Positions 7,598-28,412 of a DNA stretch of 28,412 bases are shown piece after piece. This DNA is from Candidatus Desantisbacteria bacterium CG1_02_38_46 (GTDB lineage: Bacteria > Desantisbacteria > UBA1551 > UBA1559). The notes beneath the pieces are model-generated. The model did not search any database. It saw only the letters and a list, made by a program, of their open reading frames with translations, and had not been told where the DNA came from. Position numbers and translations under genes: made by a program. Positions within the stretch are counted from its first letter, which is position 1; each line of letters begins with the position of its first letter. The stretch covers positions 1 through 28,412 of the forward strand of contig MNUO01000131.1 of assembly GCA_001871015.1 (NCBI GenBank), written 5' to 3'.

Positions 7598-7606
7598 TTT
7601 AAGAAA

Positions 7607-8911: not shown

Positions 8912-8934
8912 TATTTTTAATACTCCTTTCAAAA

Positions 8935-10116
8935 TTATTTGCAAATAAATAAATATTCCGTACCATTTCTGTTAGTACCCCTCCTGTATTTGTACGAGTG
9001 CTCTGCATTATATACTTTCACTCTGTTCGTAAAAGCTTTTAAAATGTTAATTATTCTATTTACAGAAGTCCAGCTTGAATCATTAAAAGAAAAAATCCAG
9101 GTACTTATTTTATTAAATTTAAGCAACTCCAACAATTTAATAAATGACTTCTCGTATTCTATTTTTGAATTAAAGTAATTAATTTCATTAAGATAGTTTA
9201 GCTGTAATATTGGTTTGCTAAGGACATAACTTTCTAGTAAACCATACAATTTAAAATAATCCGTATGTTCCCCACCGTAAGGTAAATCAATATATATAAG
9301 GTCAATGGGATTATTAACAAATGCTTTTGTTTGCAATAAACTCATTGTATCTGTATTAAAAGTCAATGCGTTTGTTTCTATAGGCTCAATACATCTATTT
9401 ATTTTATCCAAACTACTTTTCGAATATTTTAGGTAATCTAATACTAATTCTTCTCCAATAAATGGCCTATCTTTTCTTTTTGCTTTTTCTCTACTTACTG
9501 TAAATATTTTTCTTGATTTATATGAAGGAGAACTGAATTTTCCAGCACCTCCCCCAAACCAGCTAGATATCATTGAGAGAATCGCAGCAAAAGCAGCAGC
9601 CTGCTTGTAACCAATTTTAAATATCTGATCATCATTAATATTTATTCTATTTTTTCTCAGATAAAATATATCCTGCATATTAATTTTAATATTTCCATCT
9701 AAGTCTTCTATGTTGACTTTAAAATTATCTAAAAATATCGATTCCTTTTCATGAAAATATTTCTCTTCTCCAGTATAATATTTTTGCATGAATGAATCAG
9801 TCTTTCTATTCTTATTATAAATAAGGTATTTTATCTCTTCTTCAGAAAGTTTTAATCCTGGATTTTCAACAAATGTTTTTACATATAAGGCACTGCTTAT
9901 TAGAAAATCATTTGAAAATATTTTTTTTGCTCCAATTAACTTGGAATAAATTGAAAAAGATCCTGTTCCACTAAAAGCATCGAAAACAGTTGAATTCTTT
10001 AAATCAATGCCCTCATTTTGAAAGCATGAATTTATCCAGGATATTTTGTTTTTTTTACTACCAACATATCCATTTGGTGTAATATTTAATTTTTTTTCTA
10101 TAGAATTAATATCCAT
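8935..10116 (-). CDS. D12-like N6-adenine DNA methyltransferase (first of pair)
   Basis: A 393-residue protein with motif X-like YVGSKKNKI (17-25), motif I FDAFSGTGSFSIY (45-57) and motif IV at 277-280. Motif IV reads DLPY instead of the usual DPPY, followed by GGEHTDYFKLYGLLESY, which lines up with the sister enzyme at 6554-7597. The Leu for Pro change leaves the catalytic Asp and Tyr but may lower or alter activity. It begins 16 bases after the lexA stop, with AGGAGAG overlapping that stop, so the two genes look co-transcribed. The endonuclease gene starts 23 bases after it ends. It presumably protects the other strand of an asymmetric site. Confidence 0.8.
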   Translation of the reverse strand: MDINSIEKKLNITPNGYVGSKKNKISWINSCFQNEGIDLKNSTVFDAFSGTGSFSIYSKLIGAKKIFSNDFLISSALYVKTFVENPGLKLSEEEIKYLIYNKNRKTDSFMQKYYTGEEKYFHEKESIFLDNFKVNIEDLDGNIKINMQDIFYLRKNRININDDQIFKIGYKQAAAFAAILSMISSWFGGGAGKFSSPSYKSRKIFTVSREKAKRKDRPFIGEELVLDYLKYSKSSLDKINRCIEPIETNALTFNTDTMSLLQTKAFVNNPIDLIYIDLPYGGEHTDYFKLYGLLESYVLSKPILQLNYLNEINYFNSKIEYEKSFIKLLELLKFNKISTWIFSFNDSSWTSVNRIINILKAFTNRVKVYNAEHSYKYRRGTNRNGTEYLFICK

Positions 10117-11767: not shown

Positions 11768-11790
11768 GCAGAGTAAACTCTGCCACTACA
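11768..11790 (-). repeat. Single GTAGTG-headed palindrome (class A)
   Basis: Minus strand: GTAGTG then GCAGAGT-TT-ACTCTGC. It sits just upstream of the TPR gene's ribosome site. Same stem as at 14496, 15993, 25208 and 27507. Confidence 0.7.
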
Positions 11791-13804: not shown

Positions 13805-14953
13805 TTAAAAAATTTTCCTTCTAACTTCGTTTAATAATATTTGGGCTGCATCCTTGTCGGAAATCTTTTTAACCGGTTTTCCTTTTTTGAACAACAAAGC
13901 ATTCTTACCACTGAAGGCAATGCCAATATCCGCCTCTTTTGCCTCACCAGGACCGTTGACCTCGCAACCCATAATAGCTACCTTTAACGATGACAATAAA
14001 GCAGAATCGGGGCACACCGATGTTACCATCGGGGTCGTGCCACTACGATTCCAAGATTTTTCAAAATCGTGAACGATTTTGACTAAATTGACTTTGCAAC
14101 GACCACAGGTCGGGCAAGAAATTATTTCAATTCCAGGTTCTAATCTCAATATTTTAAGAATTTCATGTCCTGCTTTAACTTCTTCCACGGGACTTCCTGT
14201 CAGAGAAACACGAATTGTATCTCCAATCCCCCCCATAAGAAGGGTCCCTATTCCCAGAGAAGATTTAATTAATGCCGGAACCAGCGACCCGGTTGCTGTC
14301 ATCCCTAAATGAAATGGATAATCCACTTCTTTTGCCATCAACCTGTATGATTCAATTGTTGATTGGATATCCGGAGTCTTAAGGGAAATGATAATATCAT
14401 TAAACTTTAATTTCTCAAAGAGCCGAATATAACCCAGAGCGGAATCGACCATTCGTCCTGATAATGAACCCCGATGTAACATTGGGGCGCTACTTGCAGA
14501 GTTCACTCTGCCACTACAAGTGCGATGAATCGCACCGCTACCTATGGAACCAGAGTTGACACCTATACGAATCGGGATTTTTCTGCGCTTCGATTCTTTG
14601 ACAACTATTTCAATCTCGTCAGGGCGGCGTATATTGCCTGGATTTAACCTTATCTTATCAACTCCATGTTCGATTGCCACAAGTGCAAGACGATAGTTAA
14701 AGTGAATATCCGCAACCAGGGGAACATTTATTTCTTTTTTAATCGCTGAAATTGCCTGAGCAGATTTTAAATCAGGGACAGCGACTCGTACAATCTGGCA
14801 ACCCGCTTCTTTCAGTTCCCTTATTTGCCGAACTGTCTTTCTGATATCAGATGTTGGTACTTTTACCATTGACTGAATGGAAATTGGAGCATTTCCTCCA
14901 ATTGGAACATTGCCAACCCAAATCTTTATAGTGTTTCTTCGTTTAATTTTTAT
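13805..14953 (-). CDS. ispG: 4-hydroxy-3-methylbut-2-en-1-yl diphosphate synthase
   Basis: A MEP-pathway [4Fe-4S] enzyme converting ME-cPP to HMBPP. The barrel has VRVAVPDLKSA, NVPLVADIHFNYRLAL, KIRLNPGN and RIGVNSGS. The cluster domain has ISCPTCGRCKVN and MGCEVNGPGEA (cluster Cys residues). The first ATG in frame (14869) would drop the conserved VGNVPIGGNAPISIQSM, which is encoded upstream. In that frame no ATG, GTG or TTG exists, so the start must be an AUA (14953, GAGG 5 bases upstream) or AUU (14947); 14953 is used here. Three palindromic modules (14469-14541) are inserted in frame, adding GSGAIHRTCSGRVNSASSAP between GVNSGSI and the MVDSALG helix. It overlaps the end of rseP. Confidence 0.93.
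   Translation of the reverse strand: MKIKRRNTIKIWVGNVPIGGNAPISIQSMVKVPTSDIRKTVRQIRELKEAGCQIVRVAVPDLKSAQAISAIKKEINVPLVADIHFNYRLALVAIEHGVDKIRLNPGNIRRPDEIEIVVKESKRRKIPIRIGVNSGSIGSGAIHRTCSGRVNSASSAPMLHRGSLSGRMVDSALGYIRLFEKLKFNDIIISLKTPDIQSTIESYRLMAKEVDYPFHLGMTATGSLVPALIKSSLGIGTLLMGGIGDTIRVSLTGSPVEEVKAGHEILKILRLEPGIEIISCPTCGRCKVNLVKIVHDFEKSWNRSGTTPMVTSVCPDSALLSSLKVAIMGCEVNGPGEAKEADIGIAFSGKNALLFKKGKPVKKISDKDAAQILLNEVRRKIF
14469..14541 (-). repeat. Three REP-like modules inside ispG
   Basis: On the coding strand: GTAGCG + GTGCGAT-TC-ATCGCAC (14520-14541), GTAGTG + GCAGAGT-GA-ACTCTGC (14496-14517), GTAGCG + CCCCAATG-TTA-CATCGGGG (14469-14493). Three different stems share the same GTAG(T/C)G head and orientation, back to back, without breaking the ispG frame. 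Confidence 0.8.
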
Positions 14954-15978
14954 CTTATCCTCACTATATCCTTGAATGTTGCAAATATCATCAGGATTAT
15001 AAGTAACACCAGCCCTACTTGTTCCAGCAACTGCCTGTTTTTATCCGAAACTGGCCTACCCTTTAACTTTTCTATAAACAGAAGTAGAATAACACCTCCA
15101 TCCACAATGGGAATCGGAAAAAGATTTATTATGGCTAAGTTTACGCTTAGAAATCCTATGAAATATAAAAGGGAAGTAATTCCATAACGAACCTGGGCTC
15201 CAAGCATCTGCACGATTCCAATTGGTCCAGCAATGTCCGGTTTAATTCTTCCAATTATAATTAGGAACAACCCCTTGAGGATTGCGTAAGTAAGTAAAAC
15301 GGTCTGGAGGAATCCTTCATATATTGCTTTCAAGATAGAAAATTTCTTGATACTCTCCTGAGGGCTAATTCCAATGATTTTCCTCATCTCATCTTTATCC
15401 CACCGCGGCAAAATTTTAAGTTCCATCTCGCGTGTTCCCCGGAGAACTCTTATGTTAAGCGGATGTTCTATACCTTTGCGAATATTTCCTTGAACCTCCA
15501 TCCAATTGGAAACTTTTTCACCATTAATGCTTATGATTTTATCGCCAGGAACCAATCCTGCAGTTTGCGCCGGATAACCCTCAGATATTTTACCTATTAT
15601 TGTAGTATCAATGTTAAAGGAAACCACGCCTATTTTGAAAACAATAACAAACAGGAGGAATGCGAGTATGAAATTGAAGAGTGGCCCGAAAAACACAACA
15701 AGCATTCTCTCTCCTACTGAACGCATATTGAATTCCCACGGCATCCCCTGCCTGGCTTGAGAATTCTCGCCAGCCATTTTCACATATCCGCCAAAAGGAA
15801 TTAGAGATACGAGATATCTTGTTTCACCCTTTGTAAATCCTATAAGTTCTGGACCAAAACCTAATGAGAATTTTTCCACGCGAATGCCGATTTTCTTTGC
15901 GATTAGAAAATGACCGAGTTCATGAAAAAAAATCAGCAGCCCAAGCGAAATAATTGAAACTACAATTGTCGTAATCAT
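14950..15978 (-). CDS. rseP: Site-2 protease RseP (M50)
   Basis: A 342-residue inner-membrane zinc metalloprotease. HELGH (19-23) lies in the first transmembrane helix (LGLLIFFHELGHFLIA). A single PDZ domain occupies roughly residues 115-195 (AQTAGLVPGDKIISINGEKVSNW). The C-terminal NLFPIPIVDGG supplies the third zinc ligand. It cleaves anti-sigma factors or signal-peptide remnants within the membrane. Family members with one PDZ are common. Ribosome site GAGGGAAG. It sits between dxr and ispG, the usual place in bacterial frr-uppS-cdsA-dxr-rseP clusters. Confidence 0.95.
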   Translation of the reverse strand: MITTIVVSIISLGLLIFFHELGHFLIAKKIGIRVEKFSLGFGPELIGFTKGETRYLVSLIPFGGYVKMAGENSQARQGMPWEFNMRSVGERMLVVFFGPLFNFILAFLLFVIVFKIGVVSFNIDTTIIGKISEGYPAQTAGLVPGDKIISINGEKVSNWMEVQGNIRKGIEHPLNIRVLRGTREMELKILPRWDKDEMRKIIGISPQESIKKFSILKAIYEGFLQTVLLTYAILKGLFLIIIGRIKPDIAGPIGIVQMLGAQVRYGITSLLYFIGFLSVNLAIINLFPIPIVDGGVILLLFIEKLKGRPVSDKNRQLLEQVGLVLLIILMIFATFKDIVRIR

Positions 15979-15988
15979 CTTTCTTCCC

Positions 15989-17158
15989 TCATGCAGAGTT
16001 CACTCTGCCACTACAAATTATTTTTTCCGTTTCATCTCTTGCCCATTCATCTGCCTCTAATAGTTCTTTTAATGTTTGACACTTTCTTTTATATTTATCC
16101 ATTACTCTCTTTATAACCCTCGGAATGTCCATAAAACCTATTTTTCCTTCAAGGAAGGCATTAACTCCTACTTCATCCGCAGCACTTAAAACTGCAGGCA
16201 TACCTTTTCCAATAACAACGGCTTCTCGGGCATATTGAAGACAGGGAAAGGACTTAGTATCTGGATGGATAAATTCTAAATTTCCTGCCTTTGCCAAATC
16301 AGCTGATGGAAGAAAAGTCCCAATTCTTTTCGGATAGAATAGGACGTACTGAATCGGAATTCGCATATCAGGAATTGCCAATTGTGCCAAACTTATCCCA
16401 TCAATAAACGAAACAACTGAATGAATTATAGTCTGGGGATGAATCAGCACTCTGATTTTACTTAAAGGAATCCCGAAGAAGTTGCTTGCTTCAATTATTT
16501 CCAGTCCTTTATTCATCAGAGTGGCGGAATCCACAGAAATTTTTTTCCCCATCTTCCATATTGGATGTTTAATTGCCTCCTGCCTTGTAACTTTCTCCAA
16601 TGCCATTCGCGAAAGACGATAAAATGGCCCACCAGAAGCTGTAAGAATAACTTCCTTTACCTCATCTATATTCCTTCCTTCTAAACATTGGAATATTGCG
16701 CTTATCTCACTATCCACTGGTAGAATTCTCACTTTTTTCTTTTTAGCCTCATTCACGAGAATTTTTCCAAAACCTACAATCACCTCTTTATTTGCAACGG
16801 CAATATCCTTACCCTTGCCTATCGCTCTTAACAGGGGAAAAAGACTGTTTTTCCCGGTAAGTGCTCCGACTACCATATTCACTTCTTTTGCCTCGGCAAT
16901 CTTTATTAAACCACTCATTCCACTATAAATTTCAACTTTTTTACCCTTCAATAACTTCTTTACTTCAATAGCCTTTTCTTCATTTAGGATTGCTACACTA
17001 TGGGGATTAAATTTTTCTATCTGCCTTATGAGTAGTCCAATGTTTTCCCTGCAGGACAATCCATAGATGGCAAAGTCCTCTGGAAACTTCGAAATAACAT
17101 CCAGGGTATTTATACCAACAGAGCCCGTGGAACCTAAAATGGATATTATCTTTTTCAT
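15989..17158 (-). CDS. dxr: 1-deoxy-D-xylulose-5-phosphate reductoisomerase
   Basis: A 389-residue enzyme making MEP from DXP with NADPH. It has the Rossmann loop ILGSTGSVG (7-15), the metal-binding region VDSEISAIFQCLEG, ASGGPF, HPIWKMGKKISVDSATLMNKGLE and PQTIIHS. The last eight residues, CSGRVNSA, and effectively the stop come from the GTAGTG palindrome at 15993-16015, so the native C-terminus has been rewritten. The C-terminal helical domain appears otherwise complete (ELLEADEWARDETEKI). Part of the rpsB-ispG operon. Confidence 0.96.
   Translation of the reverse strand: MKKIISILGSTGSVGINTLDVISKFPEDFAIYGLSCRENIGLLIRQIEKFNPHSVAILNEEKAIEVKKLLKGKKVEIYSGMSGLIKIAEAKEVNMVVGALTGKNSLFPLLRAIGKGKDIAVANKEVIVGFGKILVNEAKKKKVRILPVDSEISAIFQCLEGRNIDEVKEVILTASGGPFYRLSRMALEKVTRQEAIKHPIWKMGKKISVDSATLMNKGLEIIEASNFFGIPLSKIRVLIHPQTIIHSVVSFIDGISLAQLAIPDMRIPIQYVLFYPKRIGTFLPSADLAKAGNLEFIHPDTKSFPCLQYAREAVVIGKGMPAVLSAADEVGVNAFLEGKIGFMDIPRVIKRVMDKYKRKCQTLKELLEADEWARDETEKIICSGRVNSA
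15993..16015 (-). repeat. Class A palindrome at the dxr C-terminus
   Basis: Coding strand GTAGTG then GCAGAGT-GA-ACTCTGC, read as CSGRVNSA and ending at the TGA (15989-15991). Same stem and same frame as in ispG. Confidence 0.75.
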
Positions 17159-17185
17159 AAATAATCCAACAATCAGTAGTCAGCA

Positions 17186-18019
17186 CTATAGGGAATAAAT
17201 AGAGAGGAAATAATAGAAAAATGGGGCAGTGAAAAGAAGGCTGTCAAATCTATCAAGTAATCCCCCGTGGCCTGGAATAAAATCCCCGGAATCCTTTGTC
17301 TCTACATCCCGCTTTAAAAGTGACTCTACCAGATCTCCAGCTTGAGCAAAAATCCCTATTAAAATTCCCAGTAATAGACTGGTCTCCAGGGAAAAATCAA
17401 ATATCCAAAATCTGGCAATAAGAAAGACGAGCAGCCCCGCAGATATCCCGCCAATTGCTCCCTCAATGGATTTATGCATACTTATCTTTGGAATCAGTTT
17501 ATGCCGTCCCCATTTTTTCCCGACGAAATAGGCTGCACTATCAGCGCACCATGTTCCGAAAAAGAGAAGATAAATAAATCGCAAGCCCCTCTCGCGCAGA
17601 AAAAACAAATGGGAAAGCAGGAAAGTAACATAAAGAACACCAAAGATAGTTGCAGCAACATTATTTACTACACTATGTCTTTCAATCTTTTTACTGAATG
17701 ATTTTTTAAATAATTCTATTATCAGAGACAGAAATATCAAAAAGACCAGGATGGAAATCGGAGAATAAATTCTGCGAAAGGCACTGATGCATAAAATCAG
17801 ACTGACGACAATTCCTGTTTCATATTGAGGATTTGACCTGTACCTCTGCAGGTCATAGAATTCAATCAGTCCAATAATGGCAGTACCTGCAACCATCAGA
17901 AAAAAAGATGCTCCTCCAAAATGAACGGCGAGAAATAAAATAGGAATAAAAATGACACTTGTGATGAGTCTCTCTGCCAATGAAAAGGTGTCAGATGAAA
18001 AGGTGTCAGGTCTTGACAA
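17186..18019 (-). CDS. cdsA: Phosphatidate cytidylyltransferase
   Basis: A multi-helix inner-membrane enzyme making CDP-diacylglycerol from phosphatidate and CTP. The C-terminal CDS signature is complete: SLLKRDVETKDSGDFIPGHGGLLDRFD. About eight hydrophobic segments follow the N-terminus (SVIFIPILFLAVHFGG, FFLMVAGTAIIGLIEF). TTG at 18019 is chosen because GGGGAGG lies 6-7 bases upstream; an in-frame ATG at 18073 would overlap the oxidoreductase gene by 68 bases and has no such site. The first residues (LSRPDTFSSDTFS) come from the repeat at 17981-18028. Confidence 0.9.
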   Translation of the reverse strand: MSRPDTFSSDTFSLAERLITSVIFIPILFLAVHFGGASFFLMVAGTAIIGLIEFYDLQRYRSNPQYETGIVVSLILCISAFRRIYSPISILVFLIFLSLIIELFKKSFSKKIERHSVVNNVAATIFGVLYVTFLLSHLFFLRERGLRFIYLLFFGTWCADSAAYFVGKKWGRHKLIPKISMHKSIEGAIGGISAGLLVFLIARFWIFDFSLETSLLLGILIGIFAQAGDLVESLLKRDVETKDSGDFIPGHGGLLDRFDSLLFTAPFFYYFLSIYSL

Positions 18020-18028
18020 ATGACACCT
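17981..18028. repeat. Tandem duplication plus AGGTGTCA palindrome at the cdsA start
   Basis: TGAAAAGGTGTCAGA (17981-17995) is repeated with one change at 17996-18010. The second copy starts an inverted repeat AGGTGTCA (18001-18008) / TGACACCT (18021-18028). It supplies part of the cdsA ribosome site and N-terminus and the last codons of the upstream oxidoreductase. Confidence 0.7.
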
Positions 18029-19034
18029 CCCCTTTCTGCAAGGATTTAGTAATTGCCTCAATAATCCTGACATTTAAAAGTGCTTCTTCTGGTTTCACCA
18101 GAGGTTCTTTATTTTTAAGAACACAGCCAATAAAATGTTTTATCGGCATTGGAACAAAACCATGGGTTCTGTCATAAATTTCCATTTTCCCACTTATGAA
18201 CGGCATATTATAAACATTTTTCCCGGAAATCCTCAAACCCTGGTCAGTAAGGTCAATGTCTATTCTGCCTTCAGTCCCGTGTACGGAAAGATTAAATTCA
18301 ATCAGGGAAGGCCAGGTAGACGGAAGTATCCATGATGTCTCTACTGTTGCGAAACAGTTTTCAAGTTTAAGCATGGCCTGAACAAGGTCATAGGTATCGA
18401 TACCAGCTTTTTTCAAAACCTCTTTCTTTCCAATAGCATAGACATCTAAAACCTTTTCTCCGGTTAACCAGCAGATGAGATCAATAAGATGAGGGAATAG
18501 AAACCAATGCGGGCCAGATTTTCCTGACCACTTAAACCATTTAGTAGCTACTTCAATTCGATCACTCATTTTCCCTGAAAGCATCAATGGTTTACCGATA
18601 TTACCTTTTTCAATTTCTTCCTTTGCTCTGACAAATGGAGGGTTCCAGCGGTTATGAAAATCAACCATCAGTTTTACTTTTGCCTTTTTTGCAGCGGAAA
18701 TTATAGCCTCAGCATCCTGAACAGTTGTCGCCAGTGGTTTCTCTACAATTATATGTTTTCCAGAAGAAGCCATCTCTATAGCCGCATCTCTATGGACAAA
18801 GTCTGGTGTAGCGATGCTTACAATTTCAATCTCTTTATTTGTGGCAATATCCCCGGTTTTTGTTGTCCAGGAGCAATTATATTTCTTTCCTATTTCTTTC
18901 GCCCTTTTTTCATTTAAATCACAGACTATCGCCAATTCAACTCTTTCGTCCTCAGCATAAACTGCGGCATGCTCTTCACCGAAAATTCCCACACCAACAA
19001 CTGCTGTTTTAATCTTTTTCACTTCAGTCTCCAT
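18006..19034 (-). CDS. Gfo/Idh/MocA-family oxidoreductase
   Basis: A 342-residue NAD(P)-dependent dehydrogenase. The Rossmann start AVVGVGIFGEEHAAVY (GxGxxG) is followed by the family's EKPLATTVQDAE, with the conserved Lys of the active site, and VDFHNRWNPPF. The C-terminal alpha/beta domain forms the substrate site (SGPHWFLFPHLIDLICWLTG with the His for catalysis). Relatives oxidise or reduce sugars, inositols or biliverdin; the substrate here is unknown. It lies 2 bases after uppS and overlaps cdsA, so it is embedded in a lipid/isoprenoid operon where it is not normally found. Confidence 0.85.
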   Translation of the reverse strand: METEVKKIKTAVVGVGIFGEEHAAVYAEDERVELAIVCDLNEKRAKEIGKKYNCSWTTKTGDIATNKEIEIVSIATPDFVHRDAAIEMASSGKHIIVEKPLATTVQDAEAIISAAKKAKVKLMVDFHNRWNPPFVRAKEEIEKGNIGKPLMLSGKMSDRIEVATKWFKWSGKSGPHWFLFPHLIDLICWLTGEKVLDVYAIGKKEVLKKAGIDTYDLVQAMLKLENCFATVETSWILPSTWPSLIEFNLSVHGTEGRIDIDLTDQGLRISGKNVYNMPFISGKMEIYDRTHGFVPMPIKHFIGCVLKNKEPLVKPEEALLNVRIIEAITKSLQKGEVSFVKT

Positions 19035-19036
19035 TT

Positions 19037-19789
19037 TTAATTCACTTTCCCTATCTTGCCAAATCTGCGCTGTCTATTTTGATAATCAAGAATTGCTCTT
19101 ATAAGATGGGCAGGCGTAAAATCTGGCCAGTAAGTGGGAGTTACCCATAATTCTGCATAGGCAGATTGCCAGAGCAGGAAATTACTGATACGCATTTCGC
19201 CACCTGTGCGAATTAACAAATCCAGGGAAGGAAGTCCCACTGTATACAAGAAACTTTCAAAATTCTCCTCATTAATTTCTTCAGAGAACTCTCCCCTGCT
19301 CTTTCTGGCAATTATCTTTTTTACAGCATCGATAACCTCAGTTCTTCCTCCATAATTTATGGCTAAATTGAGGATTAAGCCTGTATTTTTCTCGAGTGCT
19401 TTAACTGAGTTGTCAAGGCTGGATTTGATATTTTCTGGTAAATTTGAGCGCCGTCCGATCCATGCTAATCTCACATTATTTTTATCCAATTCAGGAACTT
19501 CTAATTTCAGATATTTTCTAAGCAAAATCATAAGGCCATGTACTTCTCTTTTGGGGCGAGACCAATTCTCTGTTGAAAAAACATACAGTGTAAGCACCTC
19601 GACACCGGCAAGGTTTTTGCCGGTAAACCTCACAATCTCCCTGACAACATCAACCCCTTTCCGATGGCCAATAAGCCTGGGTAATCCTCTCTCCTTTGCC
19701 CATCGTCCATTCCCATCCATAATTATTGCTATGTGCCGGGGCATCCTGTTACTATCTAATTTTTTAAATAACTCCTGTGCATTTTTCAT
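19037..19789 (-). CDS. uppS: Undecaprenyl diphosphate synthase
   Basis: A 250-residue cis-prenyltransferase making C55-PP, the carrier for cell-wall glycans. It shows the catalytic IAIIMDGNGRWA (Asp25), GHRKGVDVVREIV, TLYVFSTENWSRP, NLAINYGGRTE and RTGGEMRISNFLLWQSAYAEL near the C-terminus. Usual length. It begins 4 bases after the frr stop. Confidence 0.97.
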   Translation of the reverse strand: MKNAQELFKKLDSNRMPRHIAIIMDGNGRWAKERGLPRLIGHRKGVDVVREIVRFTGKNLAGVEVLTLYVFSTENWSRPKREVHGLMILLRKYLKLEVPELDKNNVRLAWIGRRSNLPENIKSSLDNSVKALEKNTGLILNLAINYGGRTEVIDAVKKIIARKSRGEFSEEINEENFESFLYTVGLPSLDLLIRTGGEMRISNFLLWQSAYAELWVTPTYWPDFTPAHLIRAILDYQNRQRRFGKIGKVN

Positions 19790-19793
19790 AAAT

Positions 19794-20351
19794 TTAGAGT
19801 TGTGTCATTTCTTTTTCTTTATTCTTTGCTATTCCATCAATCTCTAAAATAAATTCATCAGTTATTTTCTGAATCTTCTCATGTGCAATTCTCAATTCAT
19901 CCTCGGAAATTGAACTTTCATCCTCTAATTTTTTAATTTTATCATTAGCGTCTCTGCGCACATTTCTAATTGCGATCTTTCCATCCTCAGCCTTCTTCCT
20001 GGCTACTTTAATCAACTCCTGTCTTCTCTCCATACTTAAGGGAGGGACAGGAATACGTATGACATTTCCGTCATTTGTGGGTGTAAGTCCGAGATCCGAT
20101 GTAAGAATCCCCTTCTCTATTTCTGCAAGCTGACTCTTATCCCATGGTTGAACGATAATAAGGTGAGGATCTGCAACTGTGATAGTAGCAACCTGGTTGA
20201 GGGGAAGAACTGTATTGTAACATGAGATTTTTACCTTTTCCAATATTGTAATAGATGCCCTTCCTGTACGGATGGCTGCAAAATCCCCTCTGAGTACATC
20301 TATTACAATTTGCATTTTTTCCTTTATCTCCTTATATATATTTTCCAACAT
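19794..20351 (-). CDS. frr: Ribosome recycling factor
   Basis: A 185-residue RRF of standard length that splits post-termination ribosomes with EF-G. It has the N-terminal helix with LRGDFAAIRTGRAS, the beta domain LPLNQVATITVADPHLIIVQPWDKS, IPVPPLSMERRQELIKVARKKAEDGKIAIRNVRRDAND, and the long C-terminal helix. Ribosome site GGAGGAAG; 12 bases after pyrH. Confidence 0.97.
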   Translation of the reverse strand: MLENIYKEIKEKMQIVIDVLRGDFAAIRTGRASITILEKVKISCYNTVLPLNQVATITVADPHLIIVQPWDKSQLAEIEKGILTSDLGLTPTNDGNVIRIPVPPLSMERRQELIKVARKKAEDGKIAIRNVRRDANDKIKKLEDESSISEDELRIAHEKIQKITDEFILEIDGIAKNKEKEMTQL

Positions 20352-20363
20352 TTCTTCCTCCGC

Positions 20364-21581
<1,218 letters not shown>

Positions 21582-21598
<17 letters not shown>

Positions 21599-22421
21599 TT
21601 TCGCTACTTTCCTCCTCATGCTCATCTGCCGCAGTCAGTGGTTCGGTTTCACTCTGCGGAGATGGTTCTTCCTGCAATGGCTCCTCCTGCGATGATTCCT
21701 CATCAACCACAGGAATTTCTTCGCCTTCCACCTTTGTGCATAATCCTTTACCTTCAATCACTGCCTCGGCAATCTGATTGGTAAATAGTTTAATGCCACG
21801 AATAGCATCATCATTCCCTGGAATACAATAATTAACAAGGTTTGGGTTGCAATCTGTATCCACTATCCCCACCACCGGTATGCCAATTTTCTTTGCCTCT
21901 GCTATTGCAATTTGCTCCTTTTTAAGATCAATCACAAAGATAGCATCAGGTAATTTCTCCATATCCCTTATACCTCCTAACAAGAGGTTCAGTTTTTCCT
22001 TTTCTTTCTTCAACTTTTTGACTTCACCATCTGGTAGAACCTCAAACAATCCTTCTTTTTCCTTTTCCTCCAATTCTTTAAGTCTATTAATATTCTTACG
22101 GATTGTTTGGAAGTTGGTAAGCATTCCGCCTAACCATCTGGAATTGACATAATAAGATTGACATCTTACAGCCTCCTCCTTTATTATCTCCTGCGCCTGT
22201 TTTTTCGTCCCTACGAAAAGCACTGCCCCCCCCTGAGCAGTTAAATCTTTAATAAAATCATACGCCTCTTTGAATTTCTTTACTGTTTTCTGCAAATCAA
22301 TTACATGTATCCCGTTCCTCTGCGAAAAAATATAACTTTTCATTCCTGGATGCCAATGTTGAGTTTGATGCCCAAAGTGCACCCCCGCCTCTAAAAGTTG
22401 TTTAATTGTCAGTGACAGCAT
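21582..22421 (-). CDS. rpsB: Ribosomal protein S2
   Basis: A 279-residue S2: [82 protein letters not shown] and [15 protein letters not shown] are all typical. A Glu/Ser-rich tail of about 45 residues follows residue 235 ([18 protein letters not shown]...), an acidic extension not found in E. coli. First gene of the operon; its promoter lies inside the end of miaA. The ribosome site is GGGGGTGG. Confidence 0.97.
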
Positions 22422-22450
22422 TCCACCCCCTTATTGAAATTCCTTATCTT

Positions 22451-22478
22451 AGTATACTTCATTTTTTAAAATTGTCAA
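22451..22478 (-). promoter_or_regulatory. Promoter of the rpsB operon
   Basis: Minus strand TTGACA (22473-22478), 16-base spacer, TATACT (22451-22456). The -35 box overlaps the last codons of miaA. Confidence 0.78.
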
Positions 22479-23406
22479 GAACTTTTCCTGCCTCCTCAAT
22501 TACGGCGGAAATATTTCCACCTTTTACATCAATCCATTTTATTCGTTTATCTTTCTTAAACCAGATTACCTGGCGCCTTGCATATCGCCTCGTATTTCTC
22601 TTCAATAACCGTATTGCTTCTTCCAATTGATATTTTCCCATTAAATATCCGATTATTTCTTTATAACCCAGACTCTCCATAGATTTCCCCCCCGTCTTGC
22701 TCGCCACGGCGAGCAGGGGGGGTCCATAACCGGCGGCAAGCAACCCTTCTACTTCTTTAATTAAACCTATTTTAATCATCAGGTCAACTCTCTTGTTTAT
22801 CTTTTTGTAAAGTTCGTTCATCGGATACCTGATTCCAATTATAAACAAATCATAGCTTGGAATTGTGGTTTTAGCCTGGTAATAGGAAAAAGGGTTCCCT
22901 GTCTGCTCATAAACTTCCAGTGCTCTTATTATCCTGCGCCGGTCATTGGGATGAATCCTTCCTGCTATCACAGGGTCAATTTCTTTAAGTCTGTTGTATA
23001 TATAGATATTTCCATATTGATTTGCTTCTGAATCTAACTTCTTGCGAATCTGCCAGTTTGCCGAGGGTGCAGGGCATAACCCATCAATCACTGCACGAAT
23101 ATATAAACCGGAACCACCAACCAAAAATGGAATTCTCTTCTTTCTGTATATTTCCTTAATTATCCTATCAGCTCTTTTTTTATAATCAGCTACTGTAAAA
23201 TCTTCGTCAGGTTTTACAATATCAATAAGATGACAAGCCTCCTTTCCGCCTGATGCAGATTTTCCAGTGCCTATATCCATAAATTTGTAAACCTGTCTGG
23301 AATCCGCAGAAATAATTTCCAATGGATATCGCCTGGCCAATTGTTCTGCAACCTCAGTCTTACCTGAAGCAGTTGGACCAACAAGCACTACTAATGGCTT
23401 TTTCAT
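22459..23406 (-). CDS. miaA: tRNA dimethylallyltransferase
   Basis: A 315-residue enzyme adding dimethylallyl to A37 of tRNAs that read UNN codons. It has the P-loop GPTASGKTEVAEQLA (10-24), ISADSRQVYKFMDIGTGKS, FLVGGSGLYIRAVIDGL, NDRRRIIRALEVYEQTGNPFS and YARRQVIWFKKD. Between LLAAGYG and SMESLGYKEI the family has about three residues. Here a palindrome (22687-22722) adds PPLLAVASKTGGK in frame, near the tRNA-contacting region. It starts 7 bases after the ferredoxin gene. Confidence 0.95.
   Translation of the reverse strand: MKKPLVVLVGPTASGKTEVAEQLARRYPLEIISADSRQVYKFMDIGTGKSASGGKEACHLIDIVKPDEDFTVADYKKRADRIIKEIYRKKRIPFLVGGSGLYIRAVIDGLCPAPSANWQIRKKLDSEANQYGNIYIYNRLKEIDPVIAGRIHPNDRRRIIRALEVYEQTGNPFSYYQAKTTIPSYDLFIIGIRYPMNELYKKINKRVDLMIKIGLIKEVEGLLAAGYGPPLLAVASKTGGKSMESLGYKEIIGYLMGKYQLEEAIRLLKRNTRRYARRQVIWFKKDKRIKWIDVKGGNISAVIEEAGKVLDNFKK
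22687..22722. repeat. Class B palindrome inside miaA
   Basis: C-tract, TCTTGCTCGCC, AC, GGCGAGCA and G-tract form a strong GC-rich hairpin of 36 bp (12 codons), standing out from the AT-rich gene. The same element is at 27030-27063. Confidence 0.8.
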
Positions 23407-23413
23407 GGCGCTA

Positions 23414-23605
23414 CTACTTCATCGTTATTGCTTCATTTGGACAGGACTCAGCGCATTTCCCGCATCCATCACAATCCTGCACTCGAACTACTGATGCTAT
23501 GTCATCAACCAGTTCCAGTGCTTTGTTGGGACATTCATCTATACAAATTTCGCAGCCTGTACACATCTCTTTATCAATCACCGGACTCTTCTTTTCTTCC
23601 GCCAT
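23414..23605 (-). CDS. 2[4Fe-4S] ferredoxin
   Basis: A 63-residue clostridial-type ferredoxin: CxxCxxCxxxCP twice (Cys 15, 18, 21, 25 and 45, 48, 51, 55), giving two low-potential clusters. It carries electrons in the cytoplasm, with partners unknown. Ribosome site AAAGGAGAAAAG. Its place between miaA and mnmA in a close-packed run suggests a role near tRNA modification or sulfur handling, but co-transcription alone does not prove that. Confidence 0.95.
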   Translation of the reverse strand: MAEEKKSPVIDKEMCTGCEICIDECPNKALELVDDIASVVRVQDCDGCGKCAESCPNEAITMK

Positions 23606-23623
23606 TTCTCTTTTCTCCTTTCT

Positions 23624-24727
23624 TTAATTAATTATTATACCACCGCCAATCACAACATCTCCATCATAAAAAACTGCTGATTGTCCTGGTGTTATTGCGC
23701 GCTGGGCTTGTTTAAATTTAACCTTGACTTTTCCGTTATCTAATGGCAAAATAGTTGCAAAGATTGCTTCATGCTTATACCTTATTTTCACTTCTGCATT
23801 GAGAGGTTGTGACAATTTTTTAATGGAAATATAATTAACATTTCCAGCAATCAACTGATTTTTATAAAGCGCTTTATCAGGACCAACAACAATCGTGTTA
23901 TTTTTTGGATTAACAGATACCACGTAAAGTGGTTCTCTGAATGATATTCCAAGTCCTCTGCGCTGTCCAATTGTATAAAATGCTACACCTTTATGTTCTC
24001 CTATTATTTCTCCATTTAGACTTATAATTGGACCGCGGTTTATCTCTTTGTTTCCACATAAGCCGGAAATCTGTGGTTTTAGAAATCTATGGTAGTTATT
24101 ATCAGGTATAAAACAAATTTCCTGGCTTTCTTTCTTGTCCGCGACTAATAATCCTTTTTTGCGAGCGATCTCCCTCACTTCTATCTTACTGAGATTTCCC
24201 AGCGGTAAGAGAATATGTTTCAATTGCTCCTGTGACAGAGGATAAAGTACATAGGATTGGTCCTTGCTAATATCTCTGCCTTTTTTTAACAACCACCTTT
24301 TTATTTTTGCATCATATTCAATCCTGGCGTAATGACCGGTAGCAACAAAATTTGCATTCAACTCCCTTGCTTTATAAAGGAGCGCGCCAAACTTTATAAA
24401 TTGATTGCATCTGATGCAGGGATTTGGGGTCCTGCCCTTTTTATATTCCTGAATGAAATTGTCAATAACCTTTTTCCTGAATACTCTTCGAAAATTCAGG
24501 ACATAGTGAGGTATCTCAAGCCTATATGCTACACGCTTTGCATCCTCAATTGCTAGAAGTGAACAACAACCACCGAAATGTTCATTGTTTAAATAATTAT
24601 CGGTGGGCCAAATTTGCATTGTGATACCAACAACATCATAACCATTATTTTTTAGTAGTGTTGCAGCAACAGAAGAATCAACACCACCGCTCATCGCCAC
24701 CACTACTCGTTCTTTTTTTTTAACCAC
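23624..24727 (-). CDS. mnmA: tRNA-specific 2-thiouridylase
   Basis: A 367-residue enzyme making s2U34 in tRNAs for Glu, Gln and Lys. It has the PP-loop AMSGGVDSSVAATLL (11-25), the catalytic Cys104 in TPNPCIRCNQFIKFG, GHYAR, the second catalytic Cys in ESQEICFIPD, and FYTIGQRRGLGI with a C-terminal beta-barrel ending in AITPGQSAVFYDGDVVIGGG. Normal length. The start overlaps the stop of the RseC-like gene by 8 bases. Confidence 0.97.
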   Translation of the reverse strand: MVKKKERVVVAMSGGVDSSVAATLLKNNGYDVVGITMQIWPTDNYLNNEHFGGCCSLLAIEDAKRVAYRLEIPHYVLNFRRVFRKKVIDNFIQEYKKGRTPNPCIRCNQFIKFGALLYKARELNANFVATGHYARIEYDAKIKRWLLKKGRDISKDQSYVLYPLSQEQLKHILLPLGNLSKIEVREIARKKGLLVADKKESQEICFIPDNNYHRFLKPQISGLCGNKEINRGPIISLNGEIIGEHKGVAFYTIGQRRGLGISFREPLYVVSVNPKNNTIVVGPDKALYKNQLIAGNVNYISIKKLSQPLNAEVKIRYKHEAIFATILPLDNGKVKVKFKQAQRAITPGQSAVFYDGDVVIGGGIIIN

Positions 24728-25193
24728 CTGATACTATTTCCTTTACGGTGGGTATTAATTTTCTTGCTTCAGGACTAAAGTCCTGAGTTACGTAACTCAG
24801 ACCTTCAGGTCTGATTTTTCTTGATTTGTTCATCCTCTTGTCGAAAGAACGCACAATCAAAAATGAAAAAGCCATTGCGCTCATTCCAATAATTATTGCC
24901 ATATTCTGGCTAGAACTAATCCACTGGGTCAAACCACCAGCAATAAGAAGTGCAATTATGGGAAATATATAGACCAAAAAGGCGCTGGCAAGAATATTCC
25001 CTGAACCGATTTCAATTTTTACGAGCTGCCCTACTTTTGCTCCTATTTCATTCGCTGCTTCTATTATCCTTGAATCGCCTGTTGCCAATTTACAAAAACT
25101 TGCCGAAGGGCACTTGTGGCAAACTTCTTTTTGTGCCACCTCAACTTTTGCCATATTACCTTTAATTTCTATTACCCTTCCGACTTCATCCAT
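24720..25193 (-). CDS. RseC/MucC-family membrane protein
   Basis: A 157-residue protein with an N-terminal beta-rich domain (GRVIEIKGNMAKVEV) holding three Cys (25, 28, 34: VCHKCPSASFC). Two membrane helices follow (ASAFLVYIFPIIALLIAGG and NMAIIIGMSAMAFSFLIV) and a basic tail. RseC proteins sit beside sigma-E or electron-transport (Rnf/SoxR-reducing) systems; here rubrerythrin is upstream. Near the C-terminus, PEGLSYVTQDFSPEA is encoded by three fused palindromes (24769-24814), an in-frame insertion into the cytoplasmic tail. Confidence 0.75.
   Translation of the reverse strand: MDEVGRVIEIKGNMAKVEVAQKEVCHKCPSASFCKLATGDSRIIEAANEIGAKVGQLVKIEIGSGNILASAFLVYIFPIIALLIAGGLTQWISSSQNMAIIIGMSAMAFSFLIVRSFDKRMNKSRKIRPEGLSYVTQDFSPEARKLIPTVKEIVSGG
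24769..24814. repeat. Three overlapping palindromes inside the RseC-like gene (class D)
   Basis: TCAGGACTAAAGTCCTGA (24769-24786), GAGTTACGTAACTC (24785-24798, perfect) and TCAGACCTTCAGGTCTGA (24797-24814). Their GTAACTCAG edge recurs in the array at 25995-26070. Confidence 0.75.
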
Positions 25194-25207
25194 AAATTTT
25201 TTATATT

Positions 25208-25259
25208 GTAGTGGCAGAGTTTACTCTGCTTGAGGAAGTAGTGGCAGAGTTTACTCTGC
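25208..25259 (+). repeat. Two class A modules, 30-bp period
   Basis: GTAGTG + GCAGAGT-TT-ACTCTGC at 25208-25229 and 25238-25259, joined by TTGAGGAA. Intergenic, between rubrerythrin and the RseC-like gene. Identical in unit and linker to the array at 27507-27618. Confidence 0.85.
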
Positions 25260-25277
25260 TTTATAGGATTGATTGTT

Positions 25278-25850
25278 TTAATAATTTTCAACCATCAATT
25301 CATAATATGCCTGCGGATGGACACAAGCAGGGCATTCTTTTGGAGGCTCAGTCCCTTCATGAATATAACCGCAATTACGACATCTCCATCTGACAGTTTT
25401 ACTGCGCTTGAACACTCTTCCTTCCTGAATGTTTTCGAGAAGTGCAAGATACCTTGCCTCATGTCCCTTTTCTGCTACAGCAATTGACTCAAACATCCTG
25501 GCTATTTCTTCAAACCCTTCTTCACGTGCAATTTTTGCAAATTCAGGATACATCTCTGTCCACTCGTAATTTTCGCCTGCAGCAGCAGCCTTCAAATTTT
25601 CTTGAGTAGTACCAATTGCGCCTGCAGGAAATGCTGCCTGAATCTCTACATCTCCACCCTGAAGGAATTTAAATTCTCTCTTGGCATGTTCTTTCTCGTT
25701 TTCTGCAGTATCCAGAAATATACCATAAATTTGCTCATATCCTTCTTTTTTTGCCTGCGAAGCCCAATAAGTATATCGATTTCTCGCCTGTGATTCGCCA
25801 GCAAATGCTGTCAGTAAATTTTTCTCAGTCCTACTTCCTTTTAATTGCAT
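25278..25850 (-). CDS. Rubrerythrin
   Basis: A 190-residue peroxide-reducing protein of anaerobes. The four-helix di-iron domain has [29 protein letters not shown] and [20 protein letters not shown], which give the ExxH ligands. The C-terminal rubredoxin domain has [23 protein letters not shown] with two CxxC-type pairs for Fe. It reduces H2O2 using electrons from rubredoxin/NADH or ferredoxin. ATG 25850 is chosen over 25868 because GGGGGTG lies just upstream and homology starts at [12 protein letters not shown]. The upstream region overlaps the end of a DsbD fragment. Confidence 0.96.
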
Positions 25851-25994
25851 AACACACCCCCTTGTCAATTACTTCAACGAAGAAATACTCTCCAAGTGCA
25901 ATCATAAACCAGCCAAATATTTTTTGAATTACATTAGTCCATACCCCCGGCTTTGGAAGTGCAAGAAGGAACCCAGTAAATGTCCTGCAATGTA
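25831..25994 (-). pseudogene. DsbD/CcdA-like C-terminal fragment
   Basis: A frame without a start encodes TFTGFLLALPKPGVWTNVIQ, then KIFGWFMIALGEYFF, and ends at TAG 25831-25833 inside the rubrerythrin gene. The LPKPG-W-x(6)-K-x-FG-hydrophobic-YF pattern matches the last helix of DsbD/CcdA thiol-disulfide membrane transporters. Everything N-terminal to it is replaced by the palindrome array at 25995-26070. Confidence 0.55.
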
Positions 25995-26070
25995 ACTCAG
26001 GGCTTTAGCCCTGATATCACACTCAGGGCTTTAGCCCTGATATCACACTCAGGGCTTTAGCCCTGATATC
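25995..26070. repeat. Three tandem class D palindromes, 26-bp period
   Basis: TCAGGGCTTTAGCCCTGA followed by TATCACAC, three times, starting at 25995, 26021 and 26047. Not followed by a T-run. It occupies the join between the redoxin fragment and the DsbD fragment. Confidence 0.9.
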
Positions 26071-26210
26071 AAACCTAAATCCTTGAGGGAAAAAATTGGC
26101 GCAGTCTCACCTATACAAATTCCCTTTTCTGCAGATATTGTCTGCAAAGGCAAAGCACACAAAGATACAAAAACAAAACATATTGTAATCAGACTTCCAT
26201 TTTTTGACAT
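26049..26210 (-). pseudogene. Secreted redoxin (TlpA/AhpC-TSA type), N-terminal fragment
   Basis: From ATG 26210, 8 bases after the stop of the large fusion gene, a signal-peptide-like start (SLITICFVFVSLCALPLQTISA) leads to GICIGETAPIFSLKDLG, the first strand of a thioredoxin-fold redoxin (G-x-x-AP-x-FSLKDL). The frame then enters the class D array and stops (ISGLKP). The CxxC active site is gone, so this is a truncated exported redoxin, apparently part of a thiol-redox cluster with the fusion protein. Confidence 0.6.
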
Positions 26211-26218
26211 TTTTGCCG

Positions 26219-28412
26219 TCACTTTAATGCAATCAATAGCATTGCAAGCCCGAAGAAGAAAATTGCGGTTAACACCTTTGTAAATACAAGATGCCTCTGT
26301 GAAAATTGTCCTAACTTTTGAGAACCCACACCAAAATATGCAAGCAAAAATACTACGACAAGCGGCACAATGAACATCAGGTTATAAAGGATGAGGTAAA
26401 AATAAGCCCGGCTTGCAAGCGATGGTTCCTTTGTCATAAATATAATGGTTGGAAGGTAAATTTGCCCGGTGCAAACCGCTTCAAGTATTGAAATAAGCAG
26501 TCCTGTAGTAAAAGAACCTATGACTATGAAAGAAGTACTGATGTTTTTTCTTATCCAGAAGTGAATATTCTCTTTGATGGAACGGGGCAGTTGAAGTGTA
26601 ATCCCTTTAGTTTCCCCGGTCTTTTTAAATATGCAGGCATCGTAGAGACTGAAGAATCCCAGACTTAAGGTTAACGCCAGTATCGCATAGAAAATTATTC
26701 TGGAGATAATATTGAAAACAAGCAGACTGTGCATAATTTTAAACAATCCGACACCAAGCAGAAAATAGGCGCAGAAGACACCCATGGCAAAAAAAATCCC
26801 GGTGAGAAGGATATCCTTTCTGTTCCTTCTAATATAAGTAAGAAATGAAATAAAGAAGACAATTGTGGCAAAAGCGCAAGGGTTAATTCCATCAATAAGC
26901 CCAGCTATAACTATTGCAAACGGACCAAACGATTTAAACCTCTGCACAATTTTGCTCTCTTTTTCTGGCTTTGTAGTGGCACGACTCGCCTCGGCTGGTG
27001 CCCCGGCTCTGCTTACTTCTCTTGTAGTGCCCCCCTTCTTGCTCGCCACGGCGAGCAGGGGGGTTGTAAATGTTTTTATAATCAATTCCAGTTTTTCTTT
27101 GATTTCTTTTCTGCCCAGTAAGGGCTGATTTCCAGCAAATACTTCCATCGGGGCACTTTGCTTCACTCCATATTTCTCCTCAAGTTCAACCAGCAATTCA
27201 TAATTCTCTTTTTTTGAAATATCATATTCTCTTATCTCAATAGCTCCTCCATATTTTCTCCTGATTGCAGGAAGGAACTTGTTCTTAATTTCCTCGCAAT
27301 AATGACAGCCTGAAGAATAAAAGAATAGCACAGGGAATCTGCCTGTAGAAGGAACAACCTTGCTGGTAGGAACTGAAGTTGTCTCTGCGCTTACACGGGC
27401 AAGCCTTGCGGTTTCCTGCCATTTATCGTACTCTTCAACCAATTTTGCAATTTCAGGGTCGTCAGAAATTTTATCTGTGAGCAAGGTCAATTTATAATTA
27501 ACAATCGTAGTGGCAGAGTTTACTCTGCTTGAGGAAGTAGTGGCAGAGATTGCTCTGCTTGAGGAAGTAGTGGCAGAGTTTACTCTGCTTGAGGAAGTAG
27601 TGGCAGAGTTTACTCTGCTTGAATTGAAAATGGGACTGTCCCCTTTTGAAATATTTAGCGTAATTTCTCCCAGGTGTTCCCCATTCTTTCCAGCCTGCAC
27701 TATAATAGTCCTGCCCACTTTCAATGGTTCCTCTATCAAGGTCTGGGTGTGTCCCCCGATAATCAAGTCAATACCTTCTACTTCCTGTGCCAGTTTCTCA
27801 TCACTTTCATCTCCGAGATGTGAAAGCAAAATAACAAAATCAACTTTATCCCTTAACTCAGAAAGAATTTTTCTTAATTCTGCTGATGGCTCAAGAATGG
27901 TCAGGCCTTCAATCTTTTCCTTTGGAAAAAAAATAAATGCTCTGTTGCTGATCACCCCTGCGATAAGGATTTTTAATCCCGCAATTTCCTTGATAATATA
28001 CGGCTTCGCAAATAAATGGGACTGTGGACTGTCCTCTTTAGTAATATCTTTGACGTAAGCAATAGTTGATGAAATAAATGGAAAATTCACCTCTTTCATT
28101 TTCTGTAGTAGAAAATCCTTGCCGTATGTGAATTCCTGGTCACCAATCCCTATTGCATCATATTTCATCAGAGTTACTGCTTTGAGGGTGTATTCTGCCC
28201 GTTCCTTTGGAGCAATTACTGGAAACAAATCACCAGAGTCAAGCAGAAGTATGTTCTTGTATTTGCTGCGATATTCATTAATTAAAGTTGCACGTCTTGC
28301 AAGACCACCATAGAGTAAATTGGGGCAGGTCGGGCACGCCCTGAGCATTCCATTTGTCGAATTAGTAAAAAGAATTGTGATTGTAGTGCCCCGATTTATC
28401 GGGATTGTAGTG
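26219..28412 (-). CDS. Phosphoesterase / thioredoxin-like / CcdA membrane fusion (5' end beyond window)
   Basis: The frame is open to the right edge, so the N-terminus is missing; ATG 28348 is internal, because ILFTNSTNGMLRACPTCPN, the usual first strand of the domain, is encoded upstream of it. First comes a 5'-nucleotidase/UshA-type metallophosphoesterase (ILLLDSGDLF, VILLSHLGDE, DLIIGGHTQ). Its usual GNHEF motif reads GDQEF, so metal binding may be altered. Next is a thioredoxin-like domain (FPVLFFYSSGCHYCEE; CHYC at 27296-27307). Last is a CcdA/DsbD-type transporter domain with about six helices (LIDGINPCAFATIVFF, EAVCTGQIYLP). It would move reducing power across the membrane to an attached sensor or hydrolase. 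Palindromes inserted in frame encode four SSSRVNSATT-like repeats, PLLAVASKKGG, RAGAPAEASRATT, KGDSPIF and TTIPINRGTT. Confidence 0.8.
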   Translation of the reverse strand, partial: TTIPINRGTTITILFTNSTNGMLRACPTCPNLLYGGLARRATLINEYRSKYKNILLLDSGDLFPVIAPKERAEYTLKAVTLMKYDAIGIGDQEFTYGKDFLLQKMKEVNFPFISSTIAYVKDITKEDSPQSHLFAKPYIIKEIAGLKILIAGVISNRAFIFFPKEKIEGLTILEPSAELRKILSELRDKVDFVILLSHLGDESDEKLAQEVEGIDLIIGGHTQTLIEEPLKVGRTIIVQAGKNGEHLGEITLNISKGDSPIFNSSRVNSATTSSSRVNSATTSSSRAISATTSSSRVNSATTIVNYKLTLLTDKISDDPEIAKLVEEYDKWQETARLARVSAETTSVPTSKVVPSTGRFPVLFFYSSGCHYCEEIKNKFLPAIRRKYGGAIEIREYDISKKENYELLVELEEKYGVKQSAPMEVFAGNQPLLGRKEIKEKLELIIKTFTTPLLAVASKKGGTTREVSRAGAPAEASRATTKPEKESKIVQRFKSFGPFAIVIAGLIDGINPCAFATIVFFISFLTYIRRNRKDILLTGIFFAMGVFCAYFLLGVGLFKIMHSLLVFNIISRIIFYAILALTLSLGFFSLYDACIFKKTGETKGITLQLPRSIKENIHFWIRKNISTSFIVIGSFTTGLLISILEAVCTGQIYLPTIIFMTKEPSLASRAYFYLILYNLMFIVPLVVVFLLAYFGVGSQKLGQFSQRHLVFTKVLTAIFFFGLAMLLIALK
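26972..27063 (+). repeat. Two GTAGTG-headed palindromes in the linker of the fusion gene
   Basis: GTAGTG with arms GGCAC...GTGCC (26972-27001), then GTAGTG (27024-27029) directly followed by the class B hairpin (27030-27063) also found in miaA. Both are read in frame as a low-complexity linker before the CcdA domain. Confidence 0.8.
27507..27618 (+). repeat. Four class A modules in tandem inside the fusion gene
   Basis: Units start at 27507, 27537, 27567 and 27597, exact 30-bp period: GTAGTG + GCAGAGT-TT-ACTCTGC + TTGAGGAA. The second has two substitutions (stem GCAGAGA-TT-GCTCTGC, still nearly paired). The translation is a 10-residue repeat SSSRVNSATT (once SSSRAISATT). Confidence 0.95.
27632..27642. 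repeat. GGGACTGTCCC palindrome inside the fusion gene
   Basis: Read in frame as KGDSPIF, directly beside the four-module array. Confidence 0.5.
28018..28036. repeat. GGGACTGTGGACTGTCC element inside the fusion gene
   Basis: Variant of the GGGAC/GTCCC palindrome, read in frame as EDSPQSH within the phosphoesterase domain, between strands IAYVKDITK and FAKPYIIKE. Confidence 0.45.
28383..28412 (+). repeat. GTAGTG + CCCCGAT-TT-ATCGGG module at the window edge
   Basis: GTAGTG head at 28383-28388, stem CCCCGAT...ATCGGG to 28403, and a further GTAGTG head at 28407-28412 cut by the window end. It lies in the open frame of the fusion gene (TTIPINRGTTITILF), so the array continues upstream. Confidence 0.75.

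Follow-up and report, generated by a model that had tools for sequence, protein, structure and literature searches.

Repetitive extragenic palindromes (REPs) lying in frame inside genes were reported in 2013 from Opitutus, Thauera, Thioalkalivibrio and others (Di Nocera et al., PMC3733652), and in 2018 also from within the TnpA-REP genes of subclass 2.4 (Quentin et al., PMC6006769). The REP feet named in the papers considered here are GTAG/GTGG, CGTC and CnGA, and two Rickettsia palindromic elements (RPEs), RPE-4 and RPE-6 of R. conorii, have been classed as CGTC REPs (PMC3733652). Here we analyze palindromes of contig MNUO01000131.1 from Candidatus Desantisbacteria bacterium CG1_02_38_46 (GCA_001871015.1; the whole stretch of 28,412 nt is called the window below). 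The original prediction described them as GC-rich palindromes inserted in frame in housekeeping genes, with RPEs as the nearest kind and with novelty outside Rickettsiales. The main family is a GTAG-tagged REP, and the case is an unusually rich instance of intragenic REPs; since such REPs have already been published (PMC3733652; PMC6006769), the claim of novelty falls. New are the contrast between 27% and 4% of intragenic copies of the same 22-mer here and in other genomes, the REPs with different stems at a shared codon of ThrC, and a GTAAC family with its own candidate TnpA in a relative.

With the GTAG REPs of PMC3733652 the elements share the GTAG foot, a short TY-loop hairpin, covarying stems, the occurrence as singles, dimers and clusters, and a mostly intergenic location with some copies in frame in genes, including those of repair and tRNA enzymes. 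They differ in the stem families, the lineage, the proportion of intragenic copies (about a quarter) and the arrays of up to ~7 units in one essential gene. TnpA-REPs of subclass 2.4 resemble a group of transposases from other genomes (clade A1, see below), as both have in-frame REPs in tnpA and REPs flanking the gene; this likeness is drawn from the REPs in and around the gene, and the genome analyzed here yielded no such gene. RPEs are also in-frame palindromes in essential genes, but RPE-4 and RPE-6 are CGTC-tagged, and there is neither a GTAG foot nor a link to TnpA-REP. TnpA of IS200/IS605 belongs to the same kind of HUH Y1 transposases and likewise acts on hairpins at element ends, but it mobilizes its own gene and is not the cognate enzyme of the REPs described here.

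Anatomy, abundance and position of the GTAG elements

The genome (G000; 1.73 Mb in 133 contigs, 88% complete, 38% GC) is phylogenetically isolated, with a single member of the same order (G001) among the 40 relatives listed. Genome-wide counts cover ~1.63 Mb (~94%) of its assembly, read as stretches, with genes predicted by a simple coding-model caller (1361 genes, 85% coding). The palindromes exceed chance expectation: the main 22-mer has 73+74 matches with ≤3 mismatches, while the reversed pattern, used as a control with the same tolerance, has 0+0. The curated set comprises ~225 GTAG elements spread genome-wide, which conform to the architecture GTAGTGG, a covarying stem of 6-8 bp and a TT or TC loop. 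The foot peaks 2 nt before the hairpin (186 at this offset vs 10-60 elsewhere), within the spacing of 0-2 nt typical of GTAG REPs, whose loops measure 2-4 nt, and the stems are interchangeable and covary, as in GTAGTG[gcagagt]TT[actctgc] and its counterparts with [gtcgagt], [gtcgagc] and [gcagacc]. Thus, the foot, the short TY-loop stem, the covariation, the copy number and the mostly extragenic location all identify the main family as a GTAG-tagged REP. The description "GC-rich" is only partly right, as G and C make up about half of the main stem and 38% of the genome. Analysis of the target sites revealed weak preferences only, with T preceding GTAG in 67% of cases.

Among the 225 GTAG elements, 138 are intergenic, 23 overlap gene ends and 64 lie inside gene calls; 52 of the latter are deep, i.e. 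flanked by ≥30 codons both before and after them within the gene call, and a few of them may be chance hairpins. No same-strand element uses the TAG frame, as expected of any open reading frame (ORF). The window contains the following GTAG elements and carrier genes:

13805..14869, minus strand: ispG (GcpE), Pfam PF04551 (1.8e-117), single copy in the assembly (one match)
14541-14467, minus strand: triple tandem GTAG REP in ispG, GTAGCGGTGCGATTCATCGCACTT-GTAGTGGCAGAGTGAACTCTGCAA-GTAGCGCCCCAATGTTACATCGGGGTT on the gene strand, head-to-tail, residues 110-134
15989..17158, minus strand: dxr, single copy, identified by Pfam and solved-structure matches
16014-15993, minus strand: GTAG REP that forms the tail of dxr, with the TGA stop directly after it
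27504..27620, plus strand: four GTAG REP units with a period of 30 nt in a redox fusion gene, antisense to the gene and in frame, encoding SSRVNSATTS repeats
28378..28412, plus strand: GTAG REP GTAGTGCCCCGATTTATCGGG near the right end of the window, in the upstream reading frame of the redox fusion
25208..25259, plus strand: two intergenic GTAG REPs, 30 nt apart
11768..11789, minus strand: intergenic GTAG REP

The ispG array (24+24+27 nt) adds up to 75 nt, exactly 25 codons. In an AlphaFold2 model of IspG built from two sequences (mean predicted local distance difference test score, pLDDT, 57.7) residues 110-134 form a low-confidence loop; because the model is poor, the loop placement relies mainly on alignments with homologues. 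In Dxr, homology to solved structures stops at about residue 376-382, ahead of the REP.

Carrier enzymes and comparison with other genomes

Deep elements of either class (GTAG or the GTAAC class described below) occur in 34 genes, and the in-frame REPs add from 8 to ~58 amino acids per protein. Carriers were named by NCBIfam profiles, most matches being above the equivalog cut-offs, and window genes by Pfam. They include TopA, DprA, IspE, Asd, ThiL, TsaB, TrpE, TrmD, MiaB, ThrC, AroA-Cmk, RmlB, TsaD, HypD, Mfd and NrdG2, while PstB and LeuC carry GTAAC elements. TsaB and ThiL contain 5 REPs each, Asd 4, and IspE ~7 tandem units (a 58-aa insert). TrmD, TsaB, TsaD, ThiL, IspE, Asd, TopA, AroA, ThrC and HypD pass the NCBIfam cut-offs despite their inserts, and for the 20 carriers checked no second close copy was found in the stretches read, save distant paralogues of RmlB, TrpE and Mfd. 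The elements reside in frame in single-copy essential genes. As a separate, post hoc observation, several carriers modify tRNA position 37 (TsaB, TsaD, TrmD and MiaB; loci L102, L115, L111 and L226), as does MiaA from the window (22459-23406), which carries a hairpin of another family.

Comparison with solved structures revealed extra residues at the REP sites of IspG (~+13 vs 3noy), MiaA (+10 vs 2qgn), TrmD (+4 vs 3ky7), ThiL (several blocks vs 1vqv), TsaD (~22 vs 6nak) and AroA (~13 vs 3rmt). In the same-order relative G001, IspG and IspE have no inserts, and the loops of TsaD and Asd are shorter. The earlier view that palindromes of a mobile type sit in frame at variable loops of essential enzymes is borne out by these alignments, as relatives and solved homologues do not have the extra residues.

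The exact 22-mer (with T or C in the loop) is intragenic, i.e. flanked by 30 codons in both directions within an ORF of ≥150 aa, in 21 of 78 copies in this genome (27%) and in 4 of 100 copies across 21 other genomes (4%). Fisher's test gives p = 1.5e-5, or 2.3e-4 once the copies of this genome are collapsed by ORF, for a comparison set of which more than half comes from one Elusimicrobia metagenome-assembled genome and in which copies are not independent. The 4 intragenic cases in the other genomes resemble upstream extensions of ORFs, and in G001 about 5 of 18 copies are intragenic. An element that is almost wholly extragenic in 21 genomes and 27% intragenic here allows the cause of the tolerance (the enzyme, population size or repair) to be compared at a constant element sequence. 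For a genome outside Rickettsia, the case is an unusually rich natural experiment on the gain of peptides by essential enzymes from small mobile hairpins.

In two families of the order, represented by this genome and G001, the REP of ThrC (L304; L130:8487-9629) occupies the identical codon. The stem matches the host: GAGC/GCTC in G001, where it is the typical stem, and GAGT/ACTC here. The simplest reading of these sequences would be an ancestral insertion followed by replacement of the stem; independent insertions at one site are a less simple alternative. It is conceivable, although we regard it as rather doubtful, that REPs in essential genes of the order are long-lived at orthologous codons across families and not recent insertions, with stems overwritten to the prevailing REP of the host, and that this concerted evolution lengthens core enzymes. 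Orthologous REPs with genome-specific stems would allow the lifetime of inserts to be measured.

Candidate transposases and competing explanations

Genes of the Y1_Tnp family were found in 20 of 20 tested genomes that carry the exact 22-mer, and in 5 of 14 controls. Clade A1 comprises TnpA-REPs (RAYT) of ~150 aa flanked in other genomes by REPs of the families found in the genome analyzed here, the genes being bracketed by REPs of the GTAGTGGTCGAGC, GTAGTGGCAAAGT, GTAGTTGCAGAGC or GTAGCGGTGCGAT type in Zixibacteria (L269), Ratteibacteria (L268), Elusimicrobia (L270 and L272) and others. Members from L268, L270, L272, L273 and L291 have in-frame REPs inside the transposase gene itself, at two recurrent places, and in L291 the REP at the second place is amplified about four-fold.

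We consider it highly probable that the elements are non-autonomous GTAG-class REPs spread by a TnpA-REP, and that frame-keeping copies were retained in tolerant loops or termini. The HUH transposase TnpA-REP (RAYT) would recognize the single-stranded REP through the GTAG foot and the hairpin, and copies would insert all over the genome. Those in coding sequences would survive only if the insert is a multiple of three, its frame is free of stops and it falls at a terminus or in a loop that tolerates it, while purifying selection would remove frame-breaking copies. Head-to-tail units of 24, 27 or 30 nt would then let arrays grow in frame (as in IspE and HypD), yielding predicted peptides such as (C)SGRVYSA, SRVNSATT and VVAEFTLL. 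It is for this lineage that we infer both mobilization by TnpA-REP and neutrality of the inserts.

Several points weigh against this scenario. A clade-A1 TnpA-REP was not found in the 88% complete assembly (best E-value 4.4e-4; none in a local search); the cognate enzyme may lie in the missing 12%, may have dropped out of the assembly where contigs end in repeats, or may no longer exist. The genome's own Y1 transposases were rejected as cognate enzymes: C60 and C109 belong to other branches and have no GTAG hairpins nearby, and C53 is an IS200-type fragment. Transposition is deduced from comparisons across species, translation of the REP peptides is predicted from ORFs, and the ends of the pieces read hold somewhat more elements than expected (14 vs ~4).

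An alternative is that the hairpins are retained for an RNA or DNA function within genes (pausing, mRNA stability or gyrase sites) and are not merely tolerated. The stems remain paired through covarying bases, and the REP in ThrC sits at one codon in both families of the order and is paired in both, with stems that differ between them, as this explanation would have it. However, the carriers are diverse in role, G001 has no inserts in IspG and IspE and a shorter TsaD at the site, and shared stem types arise by the spread of REPs, so that pairing needs no local selection; we therefore judge such a function improbable. RPEs, as a separate selfish class specialized in coding DNA, resemble the elements, which lie in frame within essential genes, with one or more per gene, and in variable loops. 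Nonetheless, the GTAG foot, the short stem, the TT/TC loop and the TnpA-REP flanking in other genomes define REPs, and most copies are intergenic or overlap gene ends. The main families are tagged GTAG or GTAAC, whereas R. conorii RPE-4 and RPE-6 are themselves CGTC REPs. We have rejected membership in RPEs on account of the foot sequence and the TnpA-REP link, and consider it very improbable.

Returning to tolerated REPs in functional genes, the large arrays in some loops (58 aa in IspE) could also point to decaying pseudogenes still open by chance, but trmD, tsaD, ispG, ispE, dxr and topA were found as single copies, and the carriers are uninterrupted and exceed the family cut-offs by a wide margin, which leaves scarcely any likelihood for decay. 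Equally far-fetched is an artefact of assembly or binning, with repeats joined into genes by short-read assembly: the assembly is fragmented and REPs are mildly enriched at piece ends, but most elements lie within contigs, arrays keep the frame in many genes, and G001 independently has intragenic REPs, including that of ThrC at the identical codon.

Other palindrome families and further features of the window

The six cases named originally are a mix of at least three repeat families. In ispG, miaA and the redox fusion the palindromes do lie inside the gene and in frame, and in dxr at its end; the RseC-like gene carries them in a C-terminal tail past the Pfam domain (which ends at residue 130), and for cdsA the claim is not confirmed, as the palindrome precedes the Pfam domain and is probably not coding. 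The elements concerned, together with miaA and an intergenic array, are:

22459..23406, minus strand: miaA, identified by Pfam IPPT and a PDB match, single copy
22688..22721, minus strand: C-rich hairpin of a third family, in frame inside miaA
27030..27063, minus strand: second copy of the C-rich hairpin seen in miaA, lying in frame within the redox fusion
24814-24769, minus strand: two GTAAC hairpins, head to head, in the RseC-like gene, within its C-terminal tail and outside the Pfam RseC domain
25984..26074, plus strand: three TCAGGGCTTTAGCCCTGA hairpins of the GTAAC family type, arrayed between genes with a period of 26 nt
18002..18027, minus strand: TGTCAAGACCTGACACC-type palindrome (58 copies in the family) near cdsA, overlapping the end of the upstream gene

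The second class, GTAAC[tcaggact]TT[agtcctga] and variants, has ~180 members in this genome and among 22 genomes is present only in G000 and G001. It is almost wholly extragenic (8 of 180 inside genes). About 4 of 6 reading frames through the element are open for GTAG vs 2 of 6 for GTAAC, which fits the scarcity of intragenic GTAAC copies, although this alone may not cover the whole gap. On contig C23 of G001 (L295:1277-2126) a 163-aa Y1 TnpA (L295:1435-1923) is a candidate for the cognate enzyme of this family. Because it has GTAAC hairpins on both sides, GTAAC seems to be an additional REP foot, beyond those named in the papers considered here.

The C-rich miaA-type hairpin was found in 3 copies; as only 1 of 3 contains CGTC, its identification as a CGTC REP was rejected. 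The Pfam domain of CdsA begins at residue 34 and the palindrome falls in the N-terminal stretch ahead of it, a TTG after the palindrome being the likely true start. An in-frame insertion in cdsA was therefore rejected as unproven, the palindrome being 5' of the domain and probably 5' of the true start.

The many further small repeat families in the genome include TGTCAAGACCTGACACC, with 15 of its 58 copies within gene calls, and GGCACTCTGGAAGT, and a CRISPR-like GTTTCAATCCTTGT repeat is also present. Finally, positions 6554-10116 of the window encode two DNA adenine methylase-like proteins and an HNH-type protein, possibly a restriction-modification island.

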